Source of the DNA: an uncultured Pelagibacteraceae bacterium
GTDB lineage: Bacteria; Pseudomonadota; Alphaproteobacteria; Pelagibacterales; Pelagibacteraceae
Assembly: GCA_902633965.1 (NCBI GenBank)
Contig: CACPID010000003.1
Location: 1 to 64,000, forward strand
Reading direction: 5' to 3'
Length of the DNA stretch: 64,000 nt
This document shows, in pieces, positions 2,349 to 36,232 of this stretch; position 1 is the stretch's first letter; each line of letters begins with the position of its first letter. The notes beneath the pieces are model-generated. The model worked only from the letters and a program-made list of their open reading frames with translations, searched no databases and was not told the origin of the DNA. A program made the translations under genes and the position numbers.

Positions 2349-3584
2349 ATGAGCAAATTAAGTATAGGCATAATCGGAGCAGGTATTCAAGGTGTTTGCA
2401 ATGCACTTTTTCTTCAAAAAAAAGGTCACGATGTCATAATTTTTGATAAAAACGAACCTGGTAGTGGTGCATCGTATGGTAATGCTGGTCATTTTTCACC
2501 TTATGCATCTGTACCATTAAATAGACCAGACGTTCTCACCGATGTTCCTGCTATGCTATTAAGTTCTACTGGACCTCTTGCTCTAAAATGGAACTACGTC
2601 CCAAGAATGATACCTTGGTTTTTTAAATTTTTAAGAAATTGTTCCAAAAAAAATATGATGCACACAGCAAAATATATGCATCAAATTTTAGACCTAGCCT
2701 TACCAGCATATGATGAATTGTTTGAAGAGTTAGATTTAGAAAATTTAGTGATTAAAAATGGAATTATGTATATTTGGAATAATCAAAACATAGAAAGCAG
2801 AAATTTAGAAATTAAAATTAGAGATGAACTTGGTGTTGATCAACAACTTCTTAATCCAAAAGAAATTCATGATTTAGAGCCTAATATCAAGCCAATATAT
2901 GACGGTGGGGTATTTTATTCGTATGCAAGACACACCAACAACCCAAAAAGAGTTTTTCAAAAACTTTTTGATTTATTTATTCAAAAGGGTGGAAAATTTC
3001 TAAAGCAGGAAATAAACGAACTTAATTTTGATGATCAAAAACCAATTATAAGATCACAAACCCAAAGATTTATTTTTGATAAAGTTGTTATTGCCTGTGG
3101 AGCATTTTCAAAAAGAATTTCTGATAACTTATATGAGGATATACCACTTGAAACTGAGAGAGGTTATCACATACACTTTAAGGGTTGTGAAAATTTGATA
3201 TCAAGACCTGTTGTATTTTCAAATAGAGGTTTTGGTATGACCCCAATGGAACAAGGTTTAAGAGTAGTTGGAACAGTTGAATTTGGAGGTTTGAAAAATC
3301 CGCCATCTGCAGAAAGAGTAAGAAATTTAATAAACAATGCAAAGTATATGCTAGATGGTTTACCAGAACATGATGACGAATGGTTAGGATTTAGACCAAC
3401 ACTACCTGATTTTTTACCAGTTATTGGACCATCAAAGAATTATAAAAATGTATTTTATTCATTTGGCCATCACCATTTAGGATGGACATTAGGAGCCATT
3501 TCTGGAAAGATTGTTTCTAAAATGATTTTAGACGAAAAAACAAATTTAAGCTTAGAACCTTATAGCTCTTTAAGATTTTCATAA
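2349..3584 (+). CDS. FAD-dependent oxidoreductase, D-amino-acid dehydrogenase (DadA-like)
   Basis: N-terminal GAGIQGVCNALFLQKKGHDVIIFDKN Rossmann motif; C-terminal GFRPTLPDFLPVIGPS..HHHLGWTLG typical of DadA family. Confidence 0.85.
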   Translation: MSKLSIGIIGAGIQGVCNALFLQKKGHDVIIFDKNEPGSGASYGNAGHFSPYASVPLNRPDVLTDVPAMLLSSTGPLALKWNYVPRMIPWFFKFLRNCSKKNMMHTAKYMHQILDLALPAYDELFEELDLENLVIKNGIMYIWNNQNIESRNLEIKIRDELGVDQQLLNPKEIHDLEPNIKPIYDGGVFYSYARHTNNPKRVFQKLFDLFIQKGGKFLKQEINELNFDDQKPIIRSQTQRFIFDKVVIACGAFSKRISDNLYEDIPLETERGYHIHFKGCENLISRPVVFSNRGFGMTPMEQGLRVVGTVEFGGLKNPPSAERVRNLINNAKYMLDGLPEHDDEWLGFRPTLPDFLPVIGPSKNYKNVFYSFGHHHLGWTLGAISGKIVSKMILDEKTNLSLEPYSSLRFS

Positions 3585-3587
3585 TTT

Positions 3588-4487
3588 GTGCGTAATAAAA
3601 ATGGACTTGCATATTTATTATTAATTTTTGCAACGTTATTTTGGTCAGGAAATTTTATAGTCGGTAAAGCTGCAAGCATTTATCAAATACCACCATTCTC
3701 ACTAAATTTTTATCGATGGCTATTTGCTGGATTAATACTTTTACCTTTTACTTATAAAGAAATAATTAACAATTTTAATTATATTAAATCAAAAATTAGT
3801 CATTTCATATTATTAGGCTTCACTAGCATCACTATATTTAATTCAATTGTTTATTATTCACTTTATCATACTCAGGTAATTAGCGGAGTCTTAATGATTT
3901 CAACAATACCAGTATGGATAATTTTAATTTCATCTATGTTAAAAATTGAAAAAACTAATATTTTTCAATTGTCAGGAGTTGCACTTTCTCTAATTGGTGT
4001 AATTTTTATTATTACTAAAGCAGATATTAATTTAATTCGTAATCTTGATTTTAATAGAGGAGATTTGACCATGGTAGTTGCTATGCTTGCCTGGGCAATC
4101 TATTCGTCTTTTTTGAAAAAAGATAAAATTAAAATATCTCAAATTGCTTTACTTGAGGTCGTAATTATATCCGGTTTGCTTTTTTTAATACCTATATTTA
4201 TTATTGAAATGTCTTTAGGAAATAATATTCAATTCAATAAACCCTTTTTCCTAACTTTAGCATACGTTGTATTATTTCCAGGACTAGCTTCATTTTTCTT
4301 TTGGATTAAAGGAATTGGAATAATTGGAGCAAATAGAGCTGGAATATTTTTACACTTAATGCCAATATTTGGTGCGATAATGGCTATGTTAATATTTGAT
4401 GAAAAATTTATGTTTTATCATATTTTAGGTGCGATATTTATTATAATAGGAATTTCATTATCAAATAAAAAAACTAAACTAAATTAA
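3588..4487 (+). CDS. EamA/DMT-family transporter (GTG start)
   Basis: About 10 TM, FWSGNFIVGKAAS and duplicated EamA topology. Confidence 0.85.
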   Translation: MRNKNGLAYLLLIFATLFWSGNFIVGKAASIYQIPPFSLNFYRWLFAGLILLPFTYKEIINNFNYIKSKISHFILLGFTSITIFNSIVYYSLYHTQVISGVLMISTIPVWIILISSMLKIEKTNIFQLSGVALSLIGVIFIITKADINLIRNLDFNRGDLTMVVAMLAWAIYSSFLKKDKIKISQIALLEVVIISGLLFLIPIFIIEMSLGNNIQFNKPFFLTLAYVVLFPGLASFFFWIKGIGIIGANRAGIFLHLMPIFGAIMAMLIFDEKFMFYHILGAIFIIIGISLSNKKTKLN

Positions 4488-15728: not shown

Positions 15729-17015
15729 ATGTTTTTTAACACAAAGAAAATAGAACCAATTGAGAAAGATAGCTCCTTAAATAAGGATTTAGCTATTATT
15801 ACTCAAATGAACCAAGAGTTTGCAACATCTTTGGACTTAAGTGAAACTTTACAAACTGCTTTAGAGGTAATTATAAAAAGAATAAATGCCCAGGCAGCAA
15901 ATATATTTTTAATTGACGACAAAAAACAAGTATTTCAATGTATTGCATCTAAATATCAATCATACCTTGATGAATATGAAATTCCACTGACACAAGGTGT
16001 AATGGGTAAAGCAGTTCTTCAAAAAAAATGTATTAGAGTAGGTGATGTAAGAAAAGATGTAAGAGAAATTGCAGAATTTTATTTTGATTTAGATAACAAA
16101 ACTAATTTCACAACCTATTCAGTTCTATGTTCACCATTAATTGCTGCTAATGAATGTATTGGTGTTATTCATTGTTTAAATAAAAAAACTACTACAAAAT
16201 TATTTGAGGAGAATGACAGAAAATTATTAGAAACTTTATCAGCTCCAGCAGCTTTAGCAATTCGTAATGCAAAAATGGCAAAAGAACTTGTAGAAAAAAA
16301 TAGAATGCAAAAAGAAATTGAAATAGTTGGAGAAATACAAAAAACATTATTATCTAAAAATAAAGACGAGAATTTTCCGATTGCCGGAATAAATATCCCA
16401 GCAAAGGTTGTATCAGGTGACTTCTATAATTTTTCTGAGATAGGAAAAGGAATGTATGGGTTTGGTGTAGCTGATGTATCGGGCAAAGGAATTAAATCAT
16501 CTTTGTTAATGTCAAAAGCATCAAGTTTATATCGTTGCTTAAGTAAAACTATTTTTTCAACATCAGATCTTTTAAATTTACTTAACAAAGAAATTTGTGA
16601 AACAGCTGCCAGAGGAATGTTTGTAACAATGTTAGTTGGAATTTATGATAGCAATAAAAAAGAATTACTTTTATCAAACGCTGGACACGAACCACCTCTT
16701 GTAATTGATAAAGATCAAAAGTTTTCAAATTTTTCTGAAGCTGGTCCTCCACTAGGCATAACTCCTAAAATTAAATATAAAGAAACAACAACAAACTTTT
16801 CAGATAGCTCAATGTATATTTTTACCGATGGTATAACTGAAATAAAAAATTCATCAGGTGACATGCTTGAAGCGGAAGGTTTTCAAAAATATATAAAAAA
16901 ATATCAATACACACCAAATAATAAAAGATTAAAATTAATGATAGAAGATATTGTAAAGGCAGGCATGATTCAAAAAGATGATTTAACAATTGTCACTGTT
17001 GATAGTGTACAATGA
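15729..17015 (+). CDS. GAF-domain SpoIIE/RsbU-type PP2C serine phosphatase
   Basis: N-terminal GAF (AANIFLIDDKKQVFQCIASKYQSYLDEYEIPLTQGVMGKAV), C-terminal PP2C (VSGDFYNF..FGVADVSGKGIKSSLLMS..LLSNAGHEPP..IFTDGITE..KDDLTIV). Confidence 0.92.
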   Translation: MFFNTKKIEPIEKDSSLNKDLAIITQMNQEFATSLDLSETLQTALEVIIKRINAQAANIFLIDDKKQVFQCIASKYQSYLDEYEIPLTQGVMGKAVLQKKCIRVGDVRKDVREIAEFYFDLDNKTNFTTYSVLCSPLIAANECIGVIHCLNKKTTTKLFEENDRKLLETLSAPAALAIRNAKMAKELVEKNRMQKEIEIVGEIQKTLLSKNKDENFPIAGINIPAKVVSGDFYNFSEIGKGMYGFGVADVSGKGIKSSLLMSKASSLYRCLSKTIFSTSDLLNLLNKEICETAARGMFVTMLVGIYDSNKKELLLSNAGHEPPLVIDKDQKFSNFSEAGPPLGITPKIKYKETTTNFSDSSMYIFTDGITEIKNSSGDMLEAEGFQKYIKKYQYTPNNKRLKLMIEDIVKAGMIQKDDLTIVTVDSVQ

Positions 17016-17311
17016 CAAAACTTATGAGCTTCATTGCAATATTAGTTTCAGTTGTTCTTTATTGGACAACAGCAAATGTATGTAGATATAATTTTGCAAT
17101 TGATAAGAAAACAAATATTTTAAATATTCTTTCAGATGAAATTGGTCCATCAATCGGAAGAGCGCAAGTTTATTATTATAAAGAATTAGATTGCACCAAA
17201 GTTGATTGGTCTTTTGATTATAATAGAGTAGTAAAAAATGTTGAGACTTTAAGTGTAATGGTGTACCAGTCCTTTACAACTGATATAAGAGGAAAATCTT
17301 TAATAGAATAA
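17012..17311 (+). CDS. Hypothetical secreted/membrane-anchored protein coupled to the phosphatase
   Basis: 99 aa, ATGA overlap with upstream phosphatase, N-terminal hydrophobic segment. Confidence 0.65.
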   Translation: MTKLMSFIAILVSVVLYWTTANVCRYNFAIDKKTNILNILSDEIGPSIGRAQVYYYKELDCTKVDWSFDYNRVVKNVETLSVMVYQSFTTDIRGKSLIE

Positions 17312-17661: not shown

Positions 17662-17976
17662 CTCTAACACAAAAAATTATTTCTCTAACACAAAAATATG
17701 CTATTAACTTAAAATATAAATAATGTTGATTTTATTAGCTTTTTATTATTTTATAGATTTTAAATATACTCTAACACAAAAAATTTAAGTCATTTGTGTT
17801 AGAGTTTGAGAAAATTTTTCATTTATTTATTTTTTTTATTTTTTTTTCTGAAAATGAAAAAAGCAAGTAAAATCAACACTTATAGACCAATTGACCTAAA
17901 ATGGTCACCATAGGTTGTATTTTGTGTTAGACATTTTTATAAATTGTGTTAGAGATTCACTATGTTTGTGTTAGAG
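17662..17976. repeat. Seven copies of a 12-bp motif: 3x CTCTAACACAAA then 4x TTTGTGTTAGAG (two with one mismatch)
   Basis: Copies at 17662-17673, 17683-17694, 17769-17780 (direct) and 17793-17804, 17921-17932, 17943-17954, 17965-17976 (inverted); all in noncoding DNA upstream of pilMN. Confidence 0.9.
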
Positions 17977-17994: not shown

Positions 17995-20457
17995 ATGGAC
18001 GATAAAGAAAAAGAAAAATTTGGAGTCATTATAGATAAAAATGACCAAGATACTGAAAATCAACCAAAAGTTGATGAAAGTACTGAAGATAAAAATATAT
18101 ATAAAGAGAGTGTCACCACTTCCTCTGAAACTTCAACTAATCCAGAAGAAAAACAACCTGAAAGCGATAAAACTTCAGATGTTTTAGATAAAAATGAGGA
18201 AAAAACTAATTTAGAGGAAAGTGTTAACGATAATCAGCAAAACCTACAAAATGAAAGCGAAATTAAAACTGAAAATGTAGAGGAAAAGAAGGAACATCAG
18301 GTAATTCACAAAAAAGATGGGAGATTACACATTTATATAAGACAAGATAAATATAAAGGTGAGTTAAAATCAAAAAATTGGGTTGGAAGACTTTATATAG
18401 ACGGAAAACAAAAGATTTCATCATCTGGTACTCCAAATTTAGAGGAGGCTATTCCAATCTTGGAGAAATGGTTTGATGATGTACACAAACAAAAAGAAAA
18501 AGAGCAAAAACAACTAGAGCAACAAGCAACAGATAACGTTGATGCACAACCAAAATTAGAAAGTCAAGAAACTTCTCAGGTAAAACCAACCATTCCTGAC
18601 GAAACAACAGCAACAAAATCTCCTGAGTTGTCGACACAAGAACTTATTAATAAAAAAATAAGCGAAATTAAACAACAAGAACAAAATAACATTTCAACAA
18701 TCCAAAATGAAAATGCTGACACCGGTGGTTCAAAAGTTCAAAATATTTTTAATAAATTAAAAAATATAAAATTAAAATCGCCATCTTTTGGAAAAAAAGA
18801 TTCAAGTTCTCCGAAATTAAGTTTTGATAAAAATAAAGTAAAAGATAAATTTAATAATTTTTTAAAATCAAAGCTTGGTAAAAAGACAGCACAAGGGGAA
18901 GAAATTGTAGGTGTTGAGATTACAAATAAAGAAATCAGACTTGCGCAAATTTCTTCTAACAAGGCAAATCAATGGGTACTCGATAGATTTTATACTCATG
19001 AAATTGATTTACCAGAAGATGCTGCAATTGTTGACCATGAGCAAAAAGTAAGTGAACAATTAAATATTGCATTACAAAAATCAAAAATATCAACACCTAA
19101 TGCTGCTATAGCAATTCCAGTTACAAACGCAATTATAAGAGTTGTTACAGCACCATTAATGAATGATGAAGAATTAAAAAAAGCTATTGATACAAATTCA
19201 TTATGGGAAAACTTAGTTCAGTTAACTGATAACTTAGATGATTATTCAATTTTTCACCAAGTAATAAATAGAAGCTCAAAAGAAAACACTATGGATATTT
19301 TATTTGTAGCTTCAAAATTAGCAGATATTAATAATTATACTTCTATAATTAAAAACAGTGGACTTAATCCTGTAATAATAGACGTTAAATGTTTTGCATT
19401 AAAATCTGCAGTTGATCAAATAAATCAAATCTCAAATAAAACTGAAGATGCTAATTTTACTGCAATGTTAGAATTTGGGTTAGATGAGAACTATGTAATG
19501 ATATTGTATAATAATAACCCAATAATTACTGACATTTTTCTACGTGGCCAAGATAGAAAAATTCTAAAAGAGTCTCAGGATCAAGAGGAAAAAGATGCGC
19601 TAGTCAGACGATTTATGACACAAGTTAAACAAGCAGTGCAGGATTTTGAAACAAAATATGAAAAAAGAGTTAGAAATATAAAAGTAGTTTCTAATTTACC
19701 AAATGTAGATGATTATCTGTCAAGCTTTAGAAAAAGTTTGGTAAATACTGGTTTTAATTTATTTGATCCTTTTGATGGTTTAAAAATTCCACAACAATTA
19801 GAAAGTAAAATTACTTTTGATAACAGATCTTATTTTTCTACCGTCGTTGGTCTGGCATTTAGAAAACTTGACGTATTTGGATATTATAAATTCGTTACAG
19901 CCGTAAAAAACATCAACCTTCTTCCAAATAGAGAAGGGATGATTAAGCAAAAGAAAATGAAAGCATTTTCTGACTTTGCATACAAAGGAGTTGTGGGGGC
20001 TGTTGCAGGTATATATTTAATTTTGTTCGCCTTATCATTTTGGAATATTTACAGCTACAACAATAAACTGAAAGTTTATGACACTGTTGTAGCAGAACAT
20101 ACAACCAAGAAAGGTGAGCTTGCGAAATTTTCAAAAGAATTGAAAAAAATGACAACAACTCTTAAATTGAGTAATAGTTTAAAATCTAATAAAGATTTGA
20201 GTTATAGAGTTTTAGCTCAGATTGCAAGCAGCGTACCAAATAGAGTTAAATTTGACTCAGTAGAATATGATGGGAAAAAACAGGTTGTAATAACTGGAAT
20301 TGCAGCAGGTGATAATGATATATTACAATTGATAAGAAATTTGCAGTCTAAGACATATATCACACAAGCATCACTTTCATCAATGAAAATGCCAAGAGTA
20401 AAAGCAGGTGACCAAGTAATGAAAGGATTTAAAGTATTTGTAAAGGTTAAGGGATAA
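17995..20457 (+). CDS. Fused PilM-PilN type IV pilus inner-membrane assembly protein with long charged N-terminal extension
   Basis: PilM actin-like domain (GEEIVGVEITNKEIRLAQIS..AAIAIPVTNAIIR) followed by PilN (NINLLPNREG..TM..QIASSVPNRVKFDSVEYDGKKQVVITGIA) in one ORF; N-terminal ~300 aa charged region. Confidence 0.88.
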   Translation: MDDKEKEKFGVIIDKNDQDTENQPKVDESTEDKNIYKESVTTSSETSTNPEEKQPESDKTSDVLDKNEEKTNLEESVNDNQQNLQNESEIKTENVEEKKEHQVIHKKDGRLHIYIRQDKYKGELKSKNWVGRLYIDGKQKISSSGTPNLEEAIPILEKWFDDVHKQKEKEQKQLEQQATDNVDAQPKLESQETSQVKPTIPDETTATKSPELSTQELINKKISEIKQQEQNNISTIQNENADTGGSKVQNIFNKLKNIKLKSPSFGKKDSSSPKLSFDKNKVKDKFNNFLKSKLGKKTAQGEEIVGVEITNKEIRLAQISSNKANQWVLDRFYTHEIDLPEDAAIVDHEQKVSEQLNIALQKSKISTPNAAIAIPVTNAIIRVVTAPLMNDEELKKAIDTNSLWENLVQLTDNLDDYSIFHQVINRSSKENTMDILFVASKLADINNYTSIIKNSGLNPVIIDVKCFALKSAVDQINQISNKTEDANFTAMLEFGLDENYVMILYNNNPIITDIFLRGQDRKILKESQDQEEKDALVRRFMTQVKQAVQDFETKYEKRVRNIKVVSNLPNVDDYLSSFRKSLVNTGFNLFDPFDGLKIPQQLESKITFDNRSYFSTVVGLAFRKLDVFGYYKFVTAVKNINLLPNREGMIKQKKMKAFSDFAYKGVVGAVAGIYLILFALSFWNIYSYNNKLKVYDTVVAEHTTKKGELAKFSKELKKMTTTLKLSNSLKSNKDLSYRVLAQIASSVPNRVKFDSVEYDGKKQVVITGIAAGDNDILQLIRNLQSKTYITQASLSSMKMPRVKAGDQVMKGFKVFVKVKG

Positions 20458-20459
20458 CT

Positions 20460-21170
20460 ATGAATTTTGATGATTTAAAAAATTTAGATTTAAAAAACTT
20501 AAATGTTGAAGATTTAAAACAAAAAGTTTTAGCTTTTGCTGATAAAAAAACTTTAATTAAAGTAGGCATAAGCTTAGGCTCTATAATAGTTTTTTTGATA
20601 ATCTATTATGCAATTTTAAACCCAATTGTTGAAAAGAAGAGAAATCAAATAAATGATATGAACACTAAGCAAGAGGAGATAACCAAATTTAACAAGGAGA
20701 TTGTATCTGTAAAAAGAAAAATAAAAAAAATTAAACCTAAATATGAAAATTATTCAACATTATTTCACTCCAAAGCTGAAGTTGAAGGTTTATATCAAAA
20801 CCTAAGTGAATTTGCGACTTTAAATGGTTTGGTCATTTCAGTAATAGAAAAAGGTAAACCACAACAAGTATCAAGGTCTGAGATACTTAATAAAGGTAAG
20901 AAAAAAAAGAAAAAGAAAAAAAAGAAAAGCAAAAAAGCGAAATCTAAAAAAGATGCAATTAAAAATATTGCATATTACACAATTCCAGTAAAATTTGAGA
21001 TCAATGGTAACTTTATAGGCTATATTAAATTTAAAAGGGCTTTGTCTTTATCCAATAAGATGTTGAATTTTGAGTCAGAAAGGATACAAGTAGAAAAAGG
21101 AGATTCAACTGGAGCGATAAAAGTAAGTGGAACCTTAACAATAGTGGGGCTAGCTGATGAGTTCTTTTAA
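20460..21170 (+). CDS. pilO: Type IV pilus assembly protein PilO
   Basis: Single N-terminal TM, coiled coil, C-terminal ferredoxin-like region (VKFEINGNFIGYIKFKRALS); position between pilMN and pilP. Confidence 0.85.
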   Translation: MNFDDLKNLDLKNLNVEDLKQKVLAFADKKTLIKVGISLGSIIVFLIIYYAILNPIVEKKRNQINDMNTKQEEITKFNKEIVSVKRKIKKIKPKYENYSTLFHSKAEVEGLYQNLSEFATLNGLVISVIEKGKPQQVSRSEILNKGKKKKKKKKKKSKKAKSKKDAIKNIAYYTIPVKFEINGNFIGYIKFKRALSLSNKMLNFESERIQVEKGDSTGAIKVSGTLTIVGLADEFF

Positions 21171-21606
21171 AGAAATATTAAAGAAACTAATTTTTACAAT
21201 CCTTGTAGTAATATTATCTACTAATGTGTTTGCTGATAATCATGACAAAGATAATTCCCCTAAAGAAAGTAAAGAAGAGCCATTACCTTTAAATGACCCA
21301 TTTGTTGGAGACTCATCTTTCTCTGGTGGAGTTAAGGTAATAACAGATGGTGAAAATAGCATTGCTGAAAAAAAGATGATTGATTTATATAAATTTAAAT
21401 TAGTCGGCATTATTAAGTCAGATGAGAGTAGTTTCGTTTCTATGATTAACCAAGATGGAGAAGTAATTACAGTTGGCATGTTTGAGGAGTTGAATGATGG
21501 AGTAAAGCTAGTTGATATGACTACAGAAGAAGCAATTTTTCAAACTGAAGAAAAATATTTAATAATGAATTTCAAAAACCAAATTAAGGAGACAAGTGAA
21601 TATTAA
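21157..21606 (+). CDS. pilP: Type IV pilus lipoprotein-like PilP
   Basis: LPLNDPFVG..LYKFKLVGIIKSDESSFVSMINQDGEVITVGMFEEL; position between pilO and pilQ. Confidence 0.8.
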   Translation: MSSFKEILKKLIFTILVVILSTNVFADNHDKDNSPKESKEEPLPLNDPFVGDSSFSGGVKVITDGENSIAEKKMIDLYKFKLVGIIKSDESSFVSMINQDGEVITVGMFEELNDGVKLVDMTTEEAIFQTEEKYLIMNFKNQIKETSEY

Positions 21607-23140
21607 ATCATTAAAAATAATCTCTTTAATTTCTATATTACTGCTTATATTAAATGCTTGCGCTAAACCTAATATAAAAACTAATAAGAAGTTTAAACAT
21701 AATACACCTCTTATCAAAGATGATATTAGAAAATCAGGAAAAATGGAAATTGAAAAAACTGTAAATATGGGCCCACAACCAGTTATTGGCGATACTAGAG
21801 CTTTACAAAAAAGAAAAAAAATATCCTCTCAGCAAAAAAGAAATTATCTAATGATACCAGATGAATTCGAAGCTTTAAAACAAACTGTTTCATTTAAATT
21901 TAAAGCGCTTGATTATGCAGAAGCTATGCAATTGATGGGCAAAGTAGGAAACATAAATGTTTTAGTGGGAGATGAGGTTGCTGGCTCAATCACAGCTGAG
22001 TTAATTAATGTGCCATGGGATAAAGCTTTTAATGCTTTGTTAGATATGAAAAATTTTGCAGCTGATATTGATGTCAATAGTAATTTAATAAGAGTTCATT
22101 CTCCATCAACTTTAACTGCTCAAGAAACATATAAATCAACAAGAGCAGCCGCCGTGAAAAAAAAGGTTGAATTAGAGGACTCTGTTGAACCAATTGTTTC
22201 AGAAATATTTAGACTTTATTATATTTCGCCAGCACAAGCCAAGACTACAATAAACGAATTATTTACTTCAACAGGCGAAGCTGGTTTTTCACCAATTCAA
22301 ATTACAGAGGAAGTTACAACTAGATCAATTATAGTTCGAGGAAAGAGTGAAGATTTAGATGTTGTTGATAAAATAATTGGCGAAATTGATGTCAGGACAA
22401 AGCAAGTTTTAATAGAAGCATTTATAGTTGAAGCAGACTCAACTTTTGAAAAAGCTTTAGGAACAAGATTAGGAGGTGCTTATCAGAAAAACCAAGAGTC
22501 AGTTGGTGGTATTATAGGTGGATCAATGACAGATGGAGCTATTGCTGGAGACACAGGAAGTCTAGCTTCAGGAGATGGATCAATTACAGATTTTACAGCA
22601 GCAGCAGCAGGAGCAACAAGTGGTATTGGTATTTTAAAAAGGACGGGTACAGCAGTTTTAAAAGCAGAAATACAAGCTTTAGAAACACTTGGTTTAGGAA
22701 AAACTATATCTAATCCAAAAGTTTTTACTTTGGATAATCAAATAGCAACAATTAAACAAGGTGAGGAAATTCAATTCCAAGCAACAGGATCTGAAGGTGC
22801 GGACGTACAATTTAAACCTGCCGTTTTAGAATTATCAGTTACCCCAAGCATTATTGGTGATGGAAATGTACTATTAGATGTCACTGTTAACAACGACTCT
22901 GTAAACAGAACCACTGGTGGTGAACCTGGTATAAATACAATGCAAATTCAAACTAAGCTATTAATAGCAGATGGAGACATTGTCGTGATTGGTGGAATTA
23001 AGAAAAATAAAGTATTTGATACAAAAGCTCAATTACCAGGCATTGGAAATGTCCCAATTTTAGGAAATTTATTTAAAGGTACAACAAAAAGTGATAACTT
23101 AGATGAGTTATTAATATTTATAGCACCAAGAGTTTTATAA
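21596..23140 (+). CDS. pilQ: Type IV pilus secretin PilQ
   Basis: Secretin domain (VLIEAFIVEADSTFEKALGTRLG..LKAEIQALETLGLGKTISNPKVFTLDNQIATIKQGEEI..GDIVVIGGIKKNK..LPGIGNVPILGNLFKG). Confidence 0.93.
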   Translation: MNIKSLKIISLISILLLILNACAKPNIKTNKKFKHNTPLIKDDIRKSGKMEIEKTVNMGPQPVIGDTRALQKRKKISSQQKRNYLMIPDEFEALKQTVSFKFKALDYAEAMQLMGKVGNINVLVGDEVAGSITAELINVPWDKAFNALLDMKNFAADIDVNSNLIRVHSPSTLTAQETYKSTRAAAVKKKVELEDSVEPIVSEIFRLYYISPAQAKTTINELFTSTGEAGFSPIQITEEVTTRSIIVRGKSEDLDVVDKIIGEIDVRTKQVLIEAFIVEADSTFEKALGTRLGGAYQKNQESVGGIIGGSMTDGAIAGDTGSLASGDGSITDFTAAAAGATSGIGILKRTGTAVLKAEIQALETLGLGKTISNPKVFTLDNQIATIKQGEEIQFQATGSEGADVQFKPAVLELSVTPSIIGDGNVLLDVTVNNDSVNRTTGGEPGINTMQIQTKLLIADGDIVVIGGIKKNKVFDTKAQLPGIGNVPILGNLFKGTTKSDNLDELLIFIAPRVL

Positions 23141-23141
23141 A

Positions 23142-24893
23142 ATGTTGAAAATAAGTAGAGAAAGCGAAATAAACTTAATCAATGTATTGATTGATAACGA
23201 TATTATTTCTGGAAAAGATTTACCAAATATTAAAAAAGTAAGCACAGAAAAAAATAAATCACAAATTGATGCTGTATTTGAGTTAAAGCTTTGTGATGAA
23301 GATAAAATTTTAGATGTTTTAGTTAAAGAGCAAAGTCTAGATGTTGTGGATCTGTCCAAGATTGAAATTACAGATGATATAAAATCTGTATTACCATCAA
23401 ACTACATAAATATGAATTTTGTTGCACCTTTTAAAGTCGAGGGAAAAAATTTACATATAGCAATATCTGATAGCTCAAAACTTGGGTTAATGAGAAATTT
23501 AAAAGCGATCACAAAAAAAAATATTGAACTTCATGCAGCCAAGGTATCACAGATTTCTGAGTTTATTCAAAAACTACAAAGTGAAAGTGGTGATGTAAAA
23601 ATTGAAACTATAAGAAAAGAAAATAAGGAAAAAGTAAAAACTTTTGACTCTGAGCTTGGAGATGCAGGAGAAGTTTTAGAAAATAAACCTGAAGAGGAAA
23701 TTGAAGCAATAGAAAATGAGTCTGAAGTTATTAAGTTTAGTACTGCTGTTGTAGCAGATGCAATTAAACTTGGAGTTAGTGATATTCATATTGAGCCATA
23801 CAGATTTTCATCAAGGGTTAGATATAGACTTGATGGTATGCTTCAGGAACAAGAGGAATACAAAAAATTTTTACATGATAACTATGGAGCGGTCGTAACA
23901 CGTTTTAAAATCATGGGTAAATTAGATATTGCTGAAAGAAGATTACCACAAGATGGTGCAATAAATTTTAAAATTGATGGTAAAGTTGTTGATTTAAGAT
24001 TGTCCATATTGCCAACAGCAAACAACGAAAGAATTGTAATGCGTATTCTTAATAAAGATGCAGGTGATATTACTTTAGAACAACTAAATTTTGAGGATCA
24101 AGATCTTAAAAATTTAAGAAAAGCTATTCATAGTACGCAAGGTCTTGTATTAGTAACTGGACCGACTGGATCAGGTAAATCAACCACTCTTTATAGTATT
24201 TTAAAAGAAGTAAGCAAACCTCATCTTAATATTTTGACTGCAGAAGATCCTGTTGAATATGAATTAGATGGTGTTGGCCAAGTACAAATTAAAGACGATA
24301 TTGGTTTATCCTTCGCCTCCGCTTTGAGATCTTTTTTACGTCAAGACCCGGAGATAATTCTGGTTGGGGAGATGAGGGATAAGGAAACAGTTGATATAGG
24401 TTTGAAGGCTGCATTAACAGGTCACTTAGTATTTAGCACACTTCACACTAATGATGCTCCAAGTACTATCACTCGATTACAAAATATGGGAACTCCAGAT
24501 TATTTAATTAGTGCAGCAACTCAGATGGTTCTTGCGCAAAGATTAGCGAGAAGAAATTGTAAAGATTGTAGAGCTCCAGATGAAGATGTAACACCAAAAG
24601 TTCTAACTGATTTAGGTTTTACACCAGAACAAGCATCTAGAGTAAAAGCCATAAAAGGCAAAGGTTGTGCAAAATGTAAAAATACTGGTTATAAAGGTAG
24701 ACAAGGAATTTACGAAATATTAGTAGTGTCAAAACCAATTAAAGAAGCAATTTTAAAACAAGCCACAACACCTGAACTAAGAGCAATTGCAATCAAAGAA
24801 GGTTTTCAAACCATGCAAGATATGGGTAGAAGAATGATCGCAAATGGAGATTTGAATTTTAGAGAATTCGAACGGGTTTTATCAGCTAGTTAG
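23142..24893 (+). CDS. pilB: Type IV pilus extension ATPase PilB
   Basis: GPTGSGKSTTLYSIL, SDIHIEPYRFSSRVRYRLDGML, CKDCRAP..CAKCKNTGYKGRQGIYEIL zinc motif. Confidence 0.95.
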   Translation: MLKISRESEINLINVLIDNDIISGKDLPNIKKVSTEKNKSQIDAVFELKLCDEDKILDVLVKEQSLDVVDLSKIEITDDIKSVLPSNYINMNFVAPFKVEGKNLHIAISDSSKLGLMRNLKAITKKNIELHAAKVSQISEFIQKLQSESGDVKIETIRKENKEKVKTFDSELGDAGEVLENKPEEEIEAIENESEVIKFSTAVVADAIKLGVSDIHIEPYRFSSRVRYRLDGMLQEQEEYKKFLHDNYGAVVTRFKIMGKLDIAERRLPQDGAINFKIDGKVVDLRLSILPTANNERIVMRILNKDAGDITLEQLNFEDQDLKNLRKAIHSTQGLVLVTGPTGSGKSTTLYSILKEVSKPHLNILTAEDPVEYELDGVGQVQIKDDIGLSFASALRSFLRQDPEIILVGEMRDKETVDIGLKAALTGHLVFSTLHTNDAPSTITRLQNMGTPDYLISAATQMVLAQRLARRNCKDCRAPDEDVTPKVLTDLGFTPEQASRVKAIKGKGCAKCKNTGYKGRQGIYEILVVSKPIKEAILKQATTPELRAIAIKEGFQTMQDMGRRMIANGDLNFREFERVLSAS

Positions 24894-24895
24894 TC

Positions 24896-26137
24896 ATGGA
24901 AGTATTTACTTATAAGGGTATTTCAGCGGGTAAATACGTAGAGGGTGAAATAGAGGCTCTAAATCAAGATGAGGCATCTTTTAAACTTAAAGAACAAAAA
25001 GTAATCATCACTAATTTAATTAAAACTAAGAAAAAAAAAGGCGAAACAAAAGAAAAGGCAAAAGGTAAAGGCTTTTCCTTATTTGGAAAAAAAAAGATAA
25101 AAGTTGAAGATATTTTAATTTTCTCAAAGCAGTTTGCTACCATGGTGAAGGCAGGACTGCCCATTTTGCAAACACTTGCAATGTTAAGAGACCAATTGGA
25201 GTCGCCGGCGCTTAAAGAAGTCCTTGAAGATATAAGAAAGAGTTTAGAGGGTGGTGTTACGTTATCTAAGTGTTTTGAAAAATATCCTCAGCATTTTGAT
25301 AACGTTTATGTGAACCTAATTAAAGCAGGAGAGGCCAGTGGTAAATTAGATATTTTTTTACTCAAAATCGTTGACGATTTAGAAAAAAAAGAAAAAATTA
25401 AAAAGAAAATCAAAGGTGCACTTATGTATCCTGGTATTATGTTTACTACAGCAATGGTTGTAAGCGCATTCATGTTAATTAAAGTTGTTCCAGTTTTTGC
25501 CGAAATGTATTCAGGTATGGGTTTAGATTTACCAAAACCTACAGCAATAATTATGGGGATGAGTGATTTTCTAAGAGGAACAGGTGGAAAAATTCTCTTT
25601 TTATTTTTAGTTGGGGGTTACTTTTTATTTAAATATCTCACAACTAAAAACGCTACAATACAATATAAGTGGCATAAGCAAGTATTAAAACTACCGGTAT
25701 TTGGTGATTTAATTTTAAAATCATTAATTGCCCAAATCTCATTAATTATGGGTAATTTGAGTGCCGCTGGAGTAAATTTATTAGAAAGTATAGAGATTGC
25801 AAAATCTGTAAGTAAAAATGTAGTAGTCACAGAAGCCTTAGAGAATGTCAAAAAAGGTGTATTTTCTGGTGAGACTTTGACTAAATTATTTTTAAAAGAG
25901 CCATTGTTTCCTCCAACATTCAGTCAGTTAGTATCAGTTGGCGAGCAAACAGGACAACTTGATGAAATGTTCAATTCAGTTGCAAGATACTATGAAAGTG
26001 AATTTGATACTGCCGTCAACAACATGTCTAGTTTAATTGAACCAATAATGATTGTTTTCATGGGTGTTATGATTGGCGGGCTCATGATTGCGATGTATTC
26101 ACCAATATTTAATGTTGGTGCAATAATGGGTGGTTAA
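24896..26137 (+). CDS. pilC: Type IV pilus inner-membrane platform protein PilC
   Basis: T2SF/PilC duplicated domain; FSKQFATMVKAGLPILQTL; FPPTFSQLVSVGEQTGQLDEM; MIGGLMIAMYSPIFNVGAIMGG. Confidence 0.95.
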   Translation: MEVFTYKGISAGKYVEGEIEALNQDEASFKLKEQKVIITNLIKTKKKKGETKEKAKGKGFSLFGKKKIKVEDILIFSKQFATMVKAGLPILQTLAMLRDQLESPALKEVLEDIRKSLEGGVTLSKCFEKYPQHFDNVYVNLIKAGEASGKLDIFLLKIVDDLEKKEKIKKKIKGALMYPGIMFTTAMVVSAFMLIKVVPVFAEMYSGMGLDLPKPTAIIMGMSDFLRGTGGKILFLFLVGGYFLFKYLTTKNATIQYKWHKQVLKLPVFGDLILKSLIAQISLIMGNLSAAGVNLLESIEIAKSVSKNVVVTEALENVKKGVFSGETLTKLFLKEPLFPPTFSQLVSVGEQTGQLDEMFNSVARYYESEFDTAVNNMSSLIEPIMIVFMGVMIGGLMIAMYSPIFNVGAIMGG

Positions 26138-35498: not shown

Positions 35499-35564
35499 AT
35501 AAAAATTACATAATTCAAATAAATCATTGATGCTTTTTTTTCAACATATGTTATATTGATAAAA

Positions 35565-35611
35565 GATAGTCCTATCTAGCCATCTTTAGCTCCCGGTTTT
35601 TTAGGACTATC
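35565..35611 (+). promoter_or_regulatory. Perfect 10-bp stem-loop in leader of LysE-type gene; would sequester AGGA Shine-Dalgarno
   Basis: GATAGTCCTA (35565-35574), 27-nt loop, TAGGACTATC (35602-35611), ATG at 35618. Confidence 0.6.
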
Positions 35612-35617
35612 ACCCAA

Positions 35618-36232
35618 ATGCTACCTCTCGAATTTTTCCTTTTTTTACAAATTATTTTATTTTTATTTATAACACCAGGCACTCCTAGAATAGTAATAAT
35701 ATCTAATTCAATAAATTATGGGGTAAAAAATTGCATATGGACTGCTTTGGGAGATATTACTGCTAATATAATTCAAGCAACTTTAGTAATTTTTTTTATT
35801 GGTTCGTTTTTTTCTGATTATCCAATATTTTTGATAATCTTAAAATGGGCTGGGATTATGTACTTATGTTACTTAGCTTATGATTTATATAATTCGAGTT
35901 TAAATAAATTGAATTCAAAATCTATTATAAAAAGAAGTATATTGTCGTTTTTTAATGACGGTTTTATAATTGCTGGCACAAGTCCAAAAGCTTGGATGTT
36001 TTTTCCATTTATTTTTCCACAATTTATTGATTTCGATAGCAATTATCTAATTCAATTTATTATATTAATGTCAACTTACGTTTTTTTAGATTTCTTGTCA
36101 TTGATGGCATATGCTATACTTGCTGATAGACTGGTAGGTTGGATTAAAGCGAATCCACAAAAAATAAATAGAATATCGGCATGTGCTTTACTTTTAATTG
36201 CAATATTCATAGTTTTTTTAGAAAAAAACTAA
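35618..36232 (+). CDS. LysE/RhtB-family transporter
   Basis: FITPGTPRIVIISNSINYGVKNCIWTALGDITANIIQA; multi-TM. Confidence 0.78.
   Translation: MLPLEFFLFLQIILFLFITPGTPRIVIISNSINYGVKNCIWTALGDITANIIQATLVIFFIGSFFSDYPIFLIILKWAGIMYLCYLAYDLYNSSLNKLNSKSIIKRSILSFFNDGFIIAGTSPKAWMFFPFIFPQFIDFDSNYLIQFIILMSTYVFLDFLSLMAYAILADRLVGWIKANPQKINRISACALLLIAIFIVFLEKN

Follow-up and report, generated by a model that had tools for sequence, protein, structure and literature searches.

The window analyzed here, a stretch of 64,000 nucleotides from the genome of an uncultured Pelagibacteraceae bacterium, harbors a type IV pilus operon that starts with the gene pilMN (17995..20457, +). The encoded protein of 820 amino acids is composed of an N-terminal extension, an integrase-type domain, a linker, PilM (PF11104) and PilN (PF05137), with the putative DNA-binding domain of integrase type encoded at 18295..18507 (+; approximately amino acids 101-171, profile match 2.8e-45). 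Open reading frames for pilO-like, pilP-like, pilQ, pilB and pilC genes follow at 20460..26137 (+); PilQ and PilB were identified by NCBIfam, and pilO, pilP and pilC are putative assignments by position and sequence. Core domains and operon order are the same as in type IV PilM/PilN systems in general, but here the two proteins are fused and carry an extra N-terminal putative DNA-binding domain, which is absent from a sister clade of SAR11 PilM proteins. In many relatives, genes for a GAF-SpoIIE phosphatase (PF07228) and a 99-amino-acid protein (15729-17311 in the window) are found ahead of the pilus operon and its upstream region, and these proteins might be signalling partners of the pilus operon. 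Elsewhere in the window, a match to the rhtB sRNA family (RF01814, 73.7 bits) is located at 35547-35629 (+).

The gap of 683 nt between a small open reading frame ending at 17311 and the start of pilMN houses an array of seven 12-bp sites, which extends over 18-333 bp ahead of the ATG. Sites 1 to 3 (17662..17673, 17683..17694 and 17769..17780, all -) match TTTGTGTTAGAG without mismatch, as do site 4 (17793..17804, +), which is inverted relative to site 3, and site 7 (17965..17976, +), while site 5 (17921..17932, +; TTTGTGTTAGAC) and site 6 (17943..17954, +; ATTGTGTTAGAG) show one mismatch each; all seven are conserved in relatives. The successive site-to-site spacings are 21, 86, 24, 128, 22 and 22. 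A sequence-only reading of this region had described seven copies, of which the last four, two of them imperfect (17921 and 17943), are inverted relative to the first three, start spacings of 21 bp for copies 1-2 and 22/22 bp for copies 5-7, a last copy ending 18 nt ahead of the ATG at 17995, and an unusually large noncoding gap of about 680 bp, all of which were found again. Its central inverted repeat is indeed perfect and has a 12-nt spacer, but the arms measure 13 bp (17768-17780 / 17793-17805) and not 12 bp. In the 0.9 Mb assembly, exact motif copies occur five times, all within the array, and outside of it five scattered single copies exist, each with one mismatch, hence, the array is not due to chance. 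A DNA uptake sequence was considered and rejected, because only 12 copies with at most one mismatch are present, 7 of them in the array, instead of hundreds of dispersed copies.

Lack of conservation in close relatives or a chance-like frequency had been named by the sequence-only reading as arguments against a functional array; the exact copies are confined to the array, and the search of related genomes that it had proposed revealed motif clusters kept upstream of pilM across the Pelagibacteraceae. A pattern scan with one genome per species and two motif copies 8-14 bp apart returned at least 119 stretches, and among the matches listed nearly all belong to Pelagibacteraceae and lie directly upstream of a pilMN orthologue. 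More than 100 Pelagibacteraceae contigs have clusters of TTTGTGTTAGAG directly ahead of pilM(N), and among the matches listed 109 loci contain 644 sites with at most one mismatch, in which the motif positions 2-11 are almost invariant. When the locus was compared among 15 close relatives, 79% of the columns within sites were invariant versus 8% outside. As a cis-element, the array is strongly conserved. In the window and in relatives, site 5 shows a systematic deviation, ending with GAC where the other sites end with GAG; wherever it is degenerate, it tends towards TTGACA/TGGACA, as if it doubled as a -35 element.

The sites are not only conserved in sequence but also in their helical phase. 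Neighboring copies are most commonly 21 bp apart, otherwise 22 or 23 bp, and over about 300 bp the site distances are phased at 10.7 bp with R values of 0.75 (same orientation) and 0.74 (opposite orientation), values that are inflated by shared ancestry, whereas indels of whole turns must be separate events. The phasing holds even across the 86- and 128-bp gaps and between orientations, and the gap variants among species (86/97/117/128/139/149) differ by whole turns. The mirror layout is commonest, while in other lineages the near-gene copies are reversed. These observations also bear on the possibility that the inverted copies form a structured RNA leader, a structured leader being an alternative offered by the sequence-only reading. 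The copies in opposite orientation are perfect complements, as such a leader would need, but the near-gene copies occur in either orientation depending on the lineage, Rfam returned no family match at the array, and a phasing of 10.7 bp is a feature of DNA. The lineage-dependent orientation and the spacing changes by whole turns fit bound DNA and thus an operator rather than a folded RNA, making the leader extremely improbable. The multi-site operator, also named by the sequence-only reading, is supported by the phylogenetic footprint, the helical phasing and the conserved position.

The N-terminal part of PilMN provides a candidate for the protein reading these sites. Among orthologues, the region of approximately 300 residues ahead of PilM is mostly unalignable with the exception of the domain at amino acids ~101-166, which in deep lineages begins at residue 1. 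The mean identity to the protein of the window amounts to 89% for this domain, 76% for PilM, 59% for PilN and 20-27% for the linkers, i.e. no other part of PilMN is conserved as strongly as this domain. It is conceivable that a mirrored site cluster next to a gene with an integrase-type domain represents the relic of an attachment region (attP/attB) of a mobile element without present function, since the mirror arm layout together with such a domain resembles an att region. However, relics decay, whereas here the sites stayed near-invariant while the intervening DNA diverged, the phase was kept through indels and conservation of the domain exceeds that of PilM, so that a functionless relic is highly improbable.

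The relationship of the domain to integrases became visible in searches with a profile built from the PilMN domain (A1); across the order, 43 of 248 genomes encode the domain according to this profile. In two of them, G119 and G253, the domain also or instead heads a different open reading frame of about 425 amino acids, a tyrosine recombinase. In the recombinases of the loci L234 and L235, it occupies amino acids 1-80 with the catalytic domain PF00589 downstream, and 54-60% identity (E about 1e-20, alignment A2) was found between the PilMN domain and the recombinase N-terminus, while the two SAR11 integrases are 69% identical to each other. The SAR11 recombinase aligns along its length, including the domain, with one from another alphaproteobacterium (5e-28), which indicates that the domain is native to integrases. 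Among 378 genomes of the class, both non-SAR11 matches located in a long open frame are recombinases, and a third non-SAR11 match (E 0.009) is interrupted by stops. Given the homology to the recombinases and the fact that the non-SAR11 matches in long open frames are recombinases as well, PilMN carries, as judged by sequence, an integrase N-terminal domain. The tyrosine recombinases lambda Int and KplE1 IntS likewise have a small N-terminal domain, which binds arm sites. Integrases with the domain of PilMN are rare: a survey of about 600 SAR11 genomes yielded two, 50,697 phage records contained none, and the only plasmid match was a distant recombinase.

No structure comparison reached significance. 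The AF2 model of the domain (pLDDT 87) shows strands followed by one helix, but the best PDB match in a structure search had an E value of 0.5 and is not significant; the arm-type domain of the HPI integrase (3jtz) reached the highest TM score among the 50 matches listed (0.52/0.50), but with an E value of 1.9. Of all matches, 3jtz is the closest one that makes sense for the PilMN domain. Other weak structural matches include a phage integrase as well as endonucleases of the intron and homing types. The model of the integrase N-terminus itself obtained no match in the structure search, and Pfam arm-domain families matched none of 33 domain members or the integrases, although a curated Pfam arm model is a convenience and not a defining property of the fold. 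AP2-type domains are common to integrases, homing endonucleases and plant transcription factors, and the order of strands and one helix is similar, but no significant profile or structure score links the PilMN domain to AP2. The domain also weakly matches two PHROG families of phage proteins of unknown function with 77 and 92 residues (phrog_17986 and phrog_36698, E 0.001 and 0.035), which may be stand-alone relatives.

The integrase genes are accompanied by repeats that resemble the sites upstream of pilMN. The commonest de novo repeat around both integrase genes is GTGTAAGA within TTTGTGTAAGAG, the latter sharing 11 of 12 letters with TTTGTGTTAGAG and differing in one; elsewhere GTGTAAGA is rare (12 in 876 kb). 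In the form GTGTWAGA, three copies flank the integrases in about 280 nt per element compared to 0.03-0.05 expected, they are mirrored with the left copies inverted relative to the right ones, and copies are situated just upstream of the integrase start. With these properties the repeats are arm-like and are predicted to be the arm sites of the integrases. In alignment A2, the residue at A1 column 17 is an invariant Gln in PilM and Thr in both integrases, and it is a candidate for a specificity residue, as a single base distinguishes the arm sites of the integrases from the pilM sites.

The distribution of domain and array points in the same direction. Tandem motifs were detected in 40 of the 248 genomes, and all 40 encode the domain (co-occurrence table 40/3/0/205, Fisher p 5e-43, uncorrected for phylogeny). 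The three genomes with the domain and no tandem match contain a looser array (G212), the integrase only (G253) or a contig edge (G264). In about 30 genomes, PilM occurs without the domain and the array is missing as well; the apparent exceptions regarding PilM in G108 and G264 are contig ends, and L076 and L166, which were initially scored as lacking the domain, are probably frameshift errors, because the domain was found in another frame. On the PilM tree two changes suffice, with domain and array gained once and jointly lost once, hence, the co-occurrence alone has small phylogenetic weight and the link to the integrases carries more.

Alternatively, the array might be the target of a separate, unlinked transcription factor, with the PilMN domain having another role and both being co-inherited. 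Since the changes of domain and array coincide just twice on the tree, a linkage by descent only is possible. Moreover, LytTR regulators typically use direct repeats of 9-12 bp placed 21 bp apart, a layout found in the array. However, a LytTR protein (PF04397) is encoded in 0 of 41 relatives, and a LytTR operator was rejected on this ground; furthermore, an integrase with the same domain is associated with the motif, which represents an independent link between domain and site, and in the genomes scanned motif pairs only adjoin pilM, which suits a self-encoded reader. A separate factor is therefore regarded as unlikely, and the likely reader of the array, as suggested by the sequence comparisons, is PilMN itself, the gene's own product.

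The gaps of the array contain a second conserved motif. AATCAACA, which resembles an IHF half site, was found in 64 of 90 arrays compared to 1.2 expected when the sites were masked. In the window, one copy (17724..17731, -) marks the center of the 86-bp gap that separates site 2 from site 3, where it has a fixed distance of 32/36 nt from the flanking sites, and an inverted copy (17871..17878, +) lies near the center of the 128-bp gap that follows site 4. Compared with the E. coli IHF consensus WATCAANNNNTTR, only the WATCAA half fits, while the TTR half is merely A/T-rich. Genes for HU and an IhfB-like protein are present in the genome. The bends that IHF introduces into lambda att sites are located between arm and core sites (PMC4880445). 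A further word was noticed in the spacers, AAGTCAATAA, which is enriched in some clades (about 37 of 90 arrays), with AGTCAATA present in 36 of 90 arrays versus 0.6 expected.

Collectively, our data are best explained, with a probability of about 0.7, by a domesticated integrase arm-binding domain together with an attP-like region, in which the PilMN domain would read the array and autoregulate the pil operon. The pilus base would thus probably control its own operon with parts of a mobile element. The array shares with the attP regions of lambda and KplE1 the short asymmetric sites in two mirrored clusters with candidate bend sites between them (PMC4880445), and with KplE1 intS the position of sites adjoining the integrase start codon of a negatively autoregulated gene (PMC2951348). 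It deviates from both by a domain without attached recombinase domain and by at least seven sites about 21 bp apart, and no core site is expected. In an ancestor of the Pelagibacteraceae, the 5' end of an integrase gene, comprising the arm-binding domain and upstream arm sites, might have been joined to pilM, from which the present layout at pilM would follow. Sites and domain would then have persisted as a pair over a long period, and one clade would have lost both jointly. In the cell, PilMN would be held in the inner membrane by PilN with the DNA-binding domain in the cytoplasm, and would bind the seven phased sites cooperatively, while IHF or HU at the central AATCAACA motifs may bend the DNA so that both array halves are brought together. 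This complex, which would cover 18-333 bp ahead of the ATG, would control the pilMNOPQ-BC operon, most likely by repression, and a protein of the pilus base would thereby adjust its own amount. Since no promoter was located, the choice of repression over activation is a guess; tRNA-associated integrase genes with a promoter overlapping the arm sites are negatively autoregulated (PMC2951348). Binding, bending and sign of regulation are inferred, and autoregulation by a membrane-anchored pilus protein appears to be the most economical reading.

The binding of PilMN to the array could also serve to anchor the locus at the pilus base, for example for segregation, co-assembly or the guiding of incoming DNA, instead of transcription. 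PilMN is predicted to be membrane-anchored via PilN, and the large, multi-site array with its sites in phase is centromere-like. Such an anchor is nevertheless rather improbable, because the array is placed immediately upstream of pilM itself like an operator, the motif lacks the scattered distribution of an uptake sequence, and the position on the replication axis is inconsistent in two single-contig genomes as judged by sampled GC skew, for which reason a terminus- or origin-linked partition site was rejected, too. Returning to autoregulation, it might tentatively be proposed that a complete attP-like complex of arm domain, arm sites and bending protein forms a physical link between the pilus base and the chromosome at the pil operon, and that the assembly state of the pilus is read directly as DNA occupancy, a somewhat doubtful extension.

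ToxR and CadC are membrane-integrated one-component regulators, in which a transmembrane anchor is combined with a DNA-binding domain at the cytoplasmic N-terminus. PilMN resembles them by combining a putative cytoplasmic DNA-binding domain and a membrane anchor in one protein, but its domain is of integrase type and not a winged helix, the pilus platform would be the sensor, and its own upstream region would be the sole target. In the literature searched, we found neither this array nor an integrase domain in a PilM protein described, and a recent SAR11 paper mentions pili just in passing. SAR11 bacteria are the most abundant heterotrophs of the surface ocean and possess few regulators; their pili could act in adhesion or DNA uptake. 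Our study supplies a specific candidate regulator and a specific operator for SAR11 pili. If true, a DNA-binding domain and cis-sites of a mobile element were taken over jointly by a structural cell machine, and a pilus assembly protein doubles as DNA-binding protein.

Finally, the genomic surroundings of the two SAR11 integrases deserve mention. The tyrosine recombinase genes are bordered on one side by tRNA-Leu(caa) and on the opposite side by a 3'-tRNA-like remnant, and at L234 the recombinase gene (2600-3877, -) is located next to a serine resolvase gene (1611-2321, -), with an equivalent arrangement at L235. This arrangement represents an uncharacterized SAR11 integrative element, present in 2 of roughly 600 genomes. 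As G119 contains both the integrative element and the pilM array, cross-talk between them is possible.
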